NCBI RefSeq assembly: GCF_001806325.1
Contig: NZ_CP017580.1
Location: 1,426,001 to 1,490,000 of the forward strand
Direction of reading: 5' to 3'
Source of the DNA: Curtobacterium sp. BH-2-1-1
GTDB lineage: Bacteria; Actinomycetota; Actinomycetes; Actinomycetales; Microbacteriaceae
Length of the DNA stretch: 64,000 nucleotides
Part shown: positions 34,726 through 34,847 of the stretch, in pieces
How positions within the stretch are numbered: the first letter of the stretch is position 1
Layout of the letters: every line of letters starts with the position of its first letter
Position numbers and translations under genes: made by a program
The notes under the pieces: generated by a model
Databases searched by the model: none
Seen by the model: the letters and a program-made list of their open reading frames with translations, nothing else
What the model was told of the DNA's origin: nothing

Positions 34726-34847
34726 GGTTGATTGCTCCACCGGGACCACGGATCGAGAGCCGATCGCCACTGCCCGTCCCGACCGATCGCGGTCGTGTCG
34801 TGGGGTGCGCCACCGGGGGCAGTGGTCTCGTGCCGGTGGCGCCTCGG
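34726..34847 (-). ncRNA. Structured rpf leader RNA, candidate riboswitch-like element
   Basis: On the minus strand the leader begins just after a promoter. A 10-base arm (34842-34833, GCGCCACCGG) pairs perfectly with 34816-34807. The same arm can instead pair at 9 of 10 positions with 34743-34734 (CCGGUGGAGC), which contains the ribosome-binding site. The loop of the first hairpin (CCACUGCCC, 34825-34817) is complementary over 9 bases to 34775-34767, allowing a pseudoknot. GACC/GGUC, GAUCG/CGAUC and GGGAC/GUCCC pairs fill the interval. I see no match to the c-di-AMP motif known upstream of rpf genes elsewhere. Confidence 0.6.

Follow-up and report, generated by a model that had tools for sequence, protein, structure and literature searches.

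What controls the rpf gene of Curtobacterium sp. BH-2-1-1, and what kind of RNA, if any, lies in its leader? A first-pass annotation of the window (the whole 64,000-nucleotide stretch of DNA analysed here) had described about 120 nucleotides upstream of this gene as a leader RNA with two competing pairings, one of them covering the ribosome-binding site, and had put it forward as an undescribed system. The matter bears on how bacteria gate the enzymes that cut their own wall. We arrive at a different answer: judged by comparison with its relatives, the leader belongs to a known lineage of orphan cis-regulatory RNAs, as a minimised variant that Rfam does not list.

The rpf locus and its promoter

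The source genome (3.80 Mb, a single contig) belongs to the Microbacteriaceae, order Micrococcales. Its rpf gene encodes a 227-aa product with a transglycosylase-like (Rpf) domain (PF06737, E 2.5e-32) and a LysM domain (PF01476, E 9.9e-10). The gene sits 3' of an RNA uracil methyltransferase-like gene (35061-36212, minus strand), and beyond it, on the opposite strand, lies a gene of the LytR-CpsA-Psr family (32763-33977, plus strand). An rpf match is present in all 66 Curtobacterium genomes of the genus set, which includes the source genome.

34042..34725, minus strand: rpf gene (PF06737 and PF01476; signal peptide by eye)
34854..34881, minus strand: rpf promoter, with -35 TTGATA (34881-34876), a 16-nt spacer and -10 TATGGT (34859-34854) (site scan and genus conservation)

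TTGATA-16-TATGGT is the sole sigma-70-like site in 34650-35100 (shuffles give 0.1 +/- 0.3), and TTGATA-N16-TAYGGT is retained in 63 of the 66 Curtobacterium genomes with a spacer of invariably 16; the three genomes that lack it are those of leaders L144-L146. Transcription would start at about 34847, roughly 7 nt past the -10 box, giving a predicted leader of about 34847-34726 on the minus strand, in agreement with the promoter and start that the first-pass annotation had proposed. As to an upstream ORF in the leader, 17 of 60 distinct leaders contain any ATG, and the length differences among the 60 are not multiples of three. A scan of 34650-35100 found no terminator-like site, and attenuation of rpf was set aside on that ground.

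Upstream of the promoter, at 34885-34990 (minus strand), the genus alignment contains more conserved blocks that are possible operator sites: a GTACCCGGGTAC-type palindrome, GTACAGG, a GGTACATAGCAC-like block and GGTAGAACCGTTTGTCTCGGTTTGATAACG. An imperfect hairpin, GATNNCCATGCCCATGGNNATC, lies among them at 34964-34943 (minus strand).

A conserved fold in the Curtobacterium leader

Folded as a single sequence the leader is unremarkable (z -1.59; 12 of 200 shuffles fold as well). This is not significant, so single-sequence folding was dropped as evidence and the question of structure needed comparison. The 66 genomes yield 60 distinct leaders, 56 of which make up alignment A2; the core deletions L085 and L087 and the very divergent L144 and L145 were left out, and an earlier alignment of 57 rows (A1) was set aside for gaps that misplace P1. 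The elements of the fold are as follows.

34833..34842, minus strand: P1 5' strand, GCGCCACCGG, which doubles as the 5' strand of a possible alternative pairing (read directly; genus alignment)
34830..34832, minus strand: P5 5' strand, CAC, in the P1 loop (CRC in 49 of 56 leaders)
34817..34825, minus strand: kissing (pseudoknot) strand, CCACTGCCC, in the P1 loop (9/9 with 34775-34767)
34807..34816, minus strand: P1 3' strand, CCGGTGGCGC (P1 paired 10/10 in the window)
34781..34794, minus strand: P2 hairpin, GACCGCGATCGGTC (98.9% of cells paired in A2)
34776..34780, minus strand: P4 5' strand, GGGAC (GGGRY in 55 of 56 leaders)
34767..34775, minus strand: kissing (pseudoknot) strand, GGGCAGTGG (genus alignment; 37 relatives)
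34751..34765, minus strand: P3 hairpin, GATCGGCTCTCGATC, sequence-variable (segments folded alone)
34747..34749, minus strand: P5 3' strand, GTG (GYG in 56 of 56 leaders)
34742..34746, minus strand: P4 3' strand, GTCCC, ending 3 nt before GGAG (RYCCC in 55 of 56 leaders)
34735..34738, minus strand: Shine-Dalgarno GGAG, within GGTGGAGC (34741-34734) (GGAG kept before the start codon across the A2 leaders)
34734..34743, minus strand: 3' strand of the possible alternative pairing, CCGGTGGAGC, over the ribosome site, partner 34842-34833 (9/10 in the window)

Comparison across leaders shows an architecture built on the P1 loop and P4, together with P5 and a kissing helix. P4 encloses one kissing strand and P3, and the P1 loop carries two strands reaching into the internal loop that P4 closes: CRC contacts GYG (P5) and CUGCCC contacts GGGCAG (the kissing helix), with P2 between them. 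The pairings named by the first-pass annotation all lie where it had placed them (P1 10/10, the ribosome-site pairing 9/10, the loop pseudoknot 9/9); its list of stems was right on P1 and the pseudoknot but had missed P4 and P5.

Across A2 the five helices (P1, kissing, P2, P4 and P5) are paired in 95.4% of cells. Double changes occur in 10 of 32 pairs; the double-changed cells number 115, a total that none of 500 shuffles attains (22.9 +/- 9.7), and slid controls give at most 24. The four helices without P5 give 95.4% standard pairs, double changes in 9 of 29 pairs and 92 double-changed cells, against 16.7 +/- 7.3 in shuffles (0 of 500 as high) and at most 22 when slid. P1 is paired in 88.9% of cells with double changes in 3 of 10 pairs, in an alignment that favours it by the trimming of all sequences to start at the P1 5' strand. 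For the kissing helix the figures are 98.0% and 3 of 9 pairs, and for P4 (GGGRY:RYCCC) 100% and 3 of 5 pairs, its variable pairs being G-C, A-U and G-U, and U-A, C-G and U-G. P5 was searched for in Curtobacterium because relatives (alignment A3, below) show a CACC:GGUG contact at this place. It is paired in 95.8% of cells as CAC:GUG (24 leaders), CGC:GCG (23) or CGC:GUG (2), the remaining seven having the mismatch CCC:GUG; its middle pair is thus AU in 24, GC in 23, GU in 2 and unpaired in 7. P2 (98.9% paired) is almost invariant and has no double changes, so that covariation is no test of it. The P3 segments of the 56 leaders, folded alone, comprise 49 distinct sequences, 55 of the 56 having at least four opening pairs in a run; on these predicted folds P3 is kept as a hairpin shape and not as a sequence.

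P4 and P5 had been spotted by eye before counting, for which a column-pair scan of A2 is a partial remedy. The scan covered columns 1-129, at least 20 apart and with letters in at least 50 rows, and passed pairs that were at least 85% paired with at least eight double-changed sequences. Fifteen pairs passed. Six belong to the model (one in P5, two in P4, one in P1 and two in the kissing helix), and the P5 pair, with 23 double-changed sequences, tied for first place. The nine others (60%) fall outside the model and we read them as echoes of a deep split into clades; part of the covariation signal therefore reflects common descent, which gives the slid and shuffled controls the greater weight, the counts themselves being not tree-aware and partly made up of few changes inherited by clades.

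The genus model R1 (111 positions) finds one match per genome in 61 of the 66 Curtobacterium genomes, in each case ending 6-14 bases before the rpf protein match; the window and L041, which it also matches, are, or equal, members of its training set. R1 fails to match in five genomes: both core deletions, and the three that carry L144-L146. On this comparative evidence the rpf-LysM leader in Curtobacterium is a selected RNA structure. The structured leader with a loop pseudoknot that had been read from the window alone is thus conserved, P1 and the kissing helix covarying in the 56 leaders.

The pairing over the ribosome site

The first-pass annotation had set a second pairing in competition with P1. 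In the window 34842-34833 pairs 9/10 with 34743-34734, with one G.A. Across A2, 81.4% of the cells of this alternative pairing are paired, the same as in shuffles, and there are 0 double changes. Between 5 and 7 of the ten pairs remain in L122, L125, L126, L134 and L142, where the ribosome side has changed, and 5 or 6 in L083, L093, L104 and L115, where the 5' side has lost a base. Compensatory changes, which the annotation had proposed as a check on its pairings, are thus found for P1 and the pseudoknot but not for the alternative stem, and the claim of two competing pairings finds no support across the genus. This is absence of evidence rather than disproof, and the pairing could hardly covary because its ribosome side barely varies.

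Predicted energies point the other way. A nested fold that hides the ribosome site is predicted to lie 8.8 +/- 3.8 kcal/mol lower than P1+P2+P4 in 55 of the 56 trimmed leaders, in a comparison that omits the contributions of the kissing helix and P5 and is biased towards the nested fold. For the window the predicted access to GGAG (mean unpaired probability) comes to 0.26, and 33 of the 56 leaders have a value under 0.5. A mutually exclusive switch at the ribosome site would rest on such predicted energies and on analogy.

Kinship with the lysM-Actino motif

An Rfam scan of the window gave no match at gathering level, and none to lysM-Actino (RF03090) near rpf up to E 5. Run against the source genome, RF03090 did not match any leader, its best score being 14.2 bits elsewhere in the genome. 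Gathering-level Rfam scans of 40 rpf loci gave no match either, because the relatives score far below the RF03090 cut-off: nine matching relatives reach 36.6-57.1 bits, against a curated gathering score of 153.8 bits. This cut-off appears very narrow; with strict filters RF03090 matched 1 of 296 genomes of the phylum.

When a short stretch of Arthrobacter DNA was scanned with permissive settings, RF03090 came up at 50.5 bits (E 1.9e-11; gathering score 153.8), and 8 of 10 further rpf loci, including Naasia and Amnibacterium, matched at E 5e-11 to 2.4e-5. The two of these ten loci without an RF03090 match were Frondihabitans L023 and C. ammoniigenes L142. The matching leaders come from Arthrobacter, Pseudarthrobacter, Naasia and Amnibacterium (E 2e-11 to 2e-5), and the last two genera are Microbacteriaceae, the same family as Curtobacterium.

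The Curtobacterium leader was connected to these relatives by profiles run in both directions. A Curtobacterium profile with the ribosome site removed was searched against 57 loci of other genera; 21 of its 25 matches fell in rpf leaders, in 21 of the loci, the best being Frondihabitans (E 5.2e-4) and Naasia (E 7.6e-4). In the reverse search 69 of 80 matches lay in the leader (69 of 89 loci, duplicates included), and 10 of the 11 off-leader matches were inside the rpf gene. Of 12 R1 matches at E <= 1, those to the window and L041 included, 11 fall in rpf leaders; six weak ones (E 0.07-0.56) are in Naasia and Arthrobacter-type leaders. Among 150 genomes of the family R1 matches three, all Curtobacterium, and is thus genus-specific.

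Alignment A3 holds 37 of the 57 non-Curtobacterium loci. It was drawn from 42 that matched CGGGGACGG, CCGGGACGG or CAGGGATGG, less L060 (a near copy of L028), L047, L055 and L069 (a different 5' half) and L022 (a match in another part of the leader). In A3 the helices P0-P5, P0 being an outer stem beside the ribosome site, and the kissing helix reach 90.1% pairing, and 94 cells carry double changes where 29.6 +/- 5.8 are expected from the control; some rows misalign P2 and P4, and their percentages there are too low. The kissing helix is 96.5% paired in these 37 relatives, with double changes in 6 of 7 pairs. The covariance model of the 37 relatives, R2 (142 positions), matches Frondihabitans L023 at E 6.8e-7. 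Of 17 named Curtobacterium loci, 13 have a weak R2 match in the leader (E up to 5); L012, L014 and L017 have no match, and L002, a core deletion, is matched only inside the gene. The window leader scores 16.6 bits (E 0.18), and an rpf-internal match reaches 14.1 bits. Run with strict filters over 297 genomes of the order, R2 matches 16, which belong to one family; in each of them the match lies beside an rpf relative. The evidence for kinship is the concentration of individually weak matches at one place.

Through these intermediate profiles, the Curtobacterium leader is linked by descent, as far as sequence similarity can tell, to lysM-Actino. It follows that the leader is not the undescribed system that it had been taken for; on the Rfam check that the first-pass annotation had proposed, the window has no direct match, but its relatives lead to RF03090. 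Both RNAs stand immediately before an actinobacterial gene for a cell-wall hydrolase with a LysM domain (a criterion drawn from the family name), and both have a central CUGCCC:GGGCAG-type helix, a P3 hairpin and the ribosome site at the 3' edge. P1, P4 and P5 are common to Curtobacterium and the Arthrobacter-type relatives, those of which that were tested match RF03090. Besides the kissing helix and P3, the shown part of the Rfam structure line pairs an outer stem and one further long-range stem, but neither P1 nor P4; 71 positions lie outside that part, and such a line cannot depict pseudoknots. The Curtobacterium model differs in being about half as long (111 positions versus 215), and the window stays below the gathering score with no RF03090 match. 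Taken together, these comparisons make it quite probable that the leader is a cis-regulatory RNA of the rpf-LysM gene, presumably acting on translation, and a divergent, minimised lysM-Actino branch. The leader lineage is wider than the public RF03090 model and tied to resuscitation-promoting factors, and its multi-contact fold includes helices absent from the shown Rfam structure line.

lysM-Actino is a described motif for which we know of no ligand. Within the library covered, our searches of the literature on lysM-Actino and orphan riboswitches found no ligand for it, and those on Curtobacterium riboswitches and on a Micrococcus luteus rpf riboswitch found no study of the rpf leader. Among known systems, preQ1-II and SAM-II are translational riboswitches with a pseudoknot at the ribosome site. 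They resemble the leader in a pseudoknotted fold that ends at the Shine-Dalgarno (the comparison being by Rfam scan) but differ in that here a hairpin loop makes two contacts into the P4 internal loop. In M. tuberculosis, too, an rpf leader, that of rpfB, holds a candidate RNA switch for which two conformations are predicted. PMC6009663 describes it as a transcriptional terminator/antiterminator limited to some mycobacteria, whereas the Curtobacterium region is without a terminator-like site; the two are set apart here by description.

What sets the Curtobacterium branch apart

The relatives in A3 carry a conserved GGGGACGG block (36 of 37, with AGGGATGG in one), a conservation that arises by selection of loci. 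The block is in 0 of the 56 A2 leaders, and none was seen in two Frondihabitans leaders. Six of the 56 have GAGCG, which in five cases lies between P3 and P4. Curtobacterium has the variable P3 hairpin instead of the conserved GGGGACGG hairpin and GAGCG, and ligand binding could therefore have been lost. None of the 56 leaders has a perfect 4-bp outer stem (AUGC:GCAU-like) joining the 5' tail to bases around or after GGAG. The nearest counterpart of the lysM-Actino outer stem in Curtobacterium is the alternative pairing, which is without covariation. In the relatives the P5 and P1 strands are separate, whereas in Curtobacterium the P1 5' strand could also close the ribosome site.

In two genomes labelled Curtobacterium pusillum (L085 and L087) the kissing strands, P2, P3 and P4 are gone, while promoter, rpf gene and a P1-like hairpin are still there; L012 and L013, other strains with that label, retain the core. 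On the evidence of these genomes, L085 and L087 show that the RNA core is dispensable in some strains, and the deletions are ready-made natural controls. The core deletions, the lineage without GGGGACGG and the apparent absence of c-di-AMP (below) offer ready tests of what the RNA senses.

c-di-AMP as a candidate signal

c-di-AMP is the most obvious candidate. According to PMC10117811, the ydaO/yuaA riboswitch (RF00379) controls rpf and other hydrolases in actinobacteria, Streptomyces rpfA among them. PMC8079986 lists ydaO leaders on hydrolases of Streptomyces lividans. In Curtobacterium, however, the ydaO covariance model matched neither the window nor any of 16 genomes, the source genome included, and the leader, unlike a ydaO leader, lies in a region with no terminator-like site and a genome with no DAC match. 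No recognisable match to the DAC (c-di-AMP synthase) domain was found in the source genome. Eleven further Microbacteriaceae, examined by locus (L009, L016, L022, L023, L024, L029, L039, L041, L062, L065 and L066), gave no DAC match either, against 2 of 2 Arthrobacter. The 11 cover Curtobacterium, Frondihabitans, Naasia, Amnibacterium, Microbacterium and Agrococcus, and at least two are MAGs. Across 297 genomes of the order DAC occurs in 169 and ydaO in 164, none of them from the Microbacteriaceae, of which the set has at least 20. All 16 R2-positive genomes carry both.

The lack of a DAC domain and of a ydaO riboswitch in the genome argues against c-di-AMP, and the leader's signal is probably another one; the first-pass annotation, too, had seen none of the conserved blocks of the c-di-AMP motif and had thought a different class possible. 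PMC10117811 also reports traces of c-di-AMP in a Streptomyces disA mutant; given such traces without DisA, the case is strong and not absolute. As a separate observation, the Microbacteriaceae appear to have lost c-di-AMP signalling throughout the family.

Proposed function and rival readings

The leader most likely controls rpf translation, the fold setting ribosome access to GGAG. What points to this is the one match per genome, the closing helix three bases from the Shine-Dalgarno and the lack of a terminator-like site, which makes translation control likelier than attenuation. By analogy with what is supposed for other orphan riboswitch candidates, the response would most likely be to a small molecule, and we give the riboswitch reading a slightly better than even chance. 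The competing nested fold, in which the P1 5' strand would pair with CCGGUGGAGC and hide the ribosome site, may be the other state. If so, the conserved fold would be the on state. In the relatives, on the other hand, the conserved fold and the outer stem next to the ribosome site are nested. This speaks for a folded state that is off, and by this analogy we lean slightly towards off.

These considerations have to be weighed against readings that dispense with a ligand. The leader may be a structure that serves as a protein-binding site, as an element of 5'-end stability or to fix the translation of a dangerous hydrolase at a low level. The absence of the GGGGACGG block from all 56 A2 leaders, the conservation of P3 in shape and not in sequence, and the promoter and gene kept by L085 and L087 after loss of the core, as if regulation were dispensable there, all fit such a structure. 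Against this stand an invariant core and a multi-contact pseudoknot spanning two families, which would be more typical of an aptamer, and the retention of the RNA in 61 of 66 genomes of the genus as a single match in each; we regard the ligand-free structure as a realistic reading that falls somewhat short of probable. An RNA thermometer, or a purely two-state translational switch on the P1 5' strand without an aptamer, seems unlikely to us. The lower predicted energy of the ribosome-hiding fold in 55 of 56 leaders and the mostly paired GGAG of the window (unpaired probability 0.26) would be expected of it, but the pairing it requires is no better kept than in shuffles (81.4%) and shows no double changes, GGAG access is below 0.5 in just 33 of 56 leaders, and the energies omit the conserved pseudoknots.

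The other two rivals fare worse. A diverged c-di-AMP riboswitch that Rfam has missed would share its class of target gene with Streptomyces rpfA, which is under ydaO control according to PMC10117811. We consider it very improbable in genomes where neither DAC (the source and 11 other Microbacteriaceae) nor ydaO (0 of 16 Curtobacterium) is found and in a family that is excluded from the 169 DAC and 164 ydaO genomes of the order. Functionless chance pairing in a G+C-rich leader would account for the insignificant folding energy (z -1.59), but with covariation in two alignments (A2 and A3) and a single-copy match in 61 of 66 genomes it is scarcely credible. None of these likelihoods are those of mutually exclusive events.

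Within the riboswitch reading, a more specific proposal may be made, which we offer as speculative and rather doubtful: the Curtobacterium and Frondihabitans leaders would form a ligand-switched orphan riboswitch that has kept the kissing-loop scaffold, replaced the GGGGACGG pocket and come to sense a signal other than c-di-AMP on behalf of the hydrolase. Were this true, the RNA would put a cell-wall hydrolase under a different signal, such as a precursor or a turnover product of peptidoglycan, and the sensor would act in a family apparently without c-di-AMP synthesis and its riboswitch.

Further rpf leaders of the order

Among rpf leaders outside A3, those of Glutamicibacter, Nesterenkonia, Paeniglutamicibacter and Arthrobacter (L042, L059, L072, L075 and L077-L079) match R2 at E 6e-5 to 0.29; they are without the GGGGACGG string and probably form a separate subtype within the lineage. 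The Microbacterium and Agrococcus leaders L039, L062 and L065 gave no R2 match; by eye they have similar elements and resemble a third subtype, with a CGCCC:GGGCG contact and a GACGGGRCYGYGGAG block before the start codon. Leaders of the Micrococcales type also stand before rpf in records titled Sporosarcina beigongshangi (L035) and Acidobacteria MAG (L031), which are likely mislabelled or contaminated.
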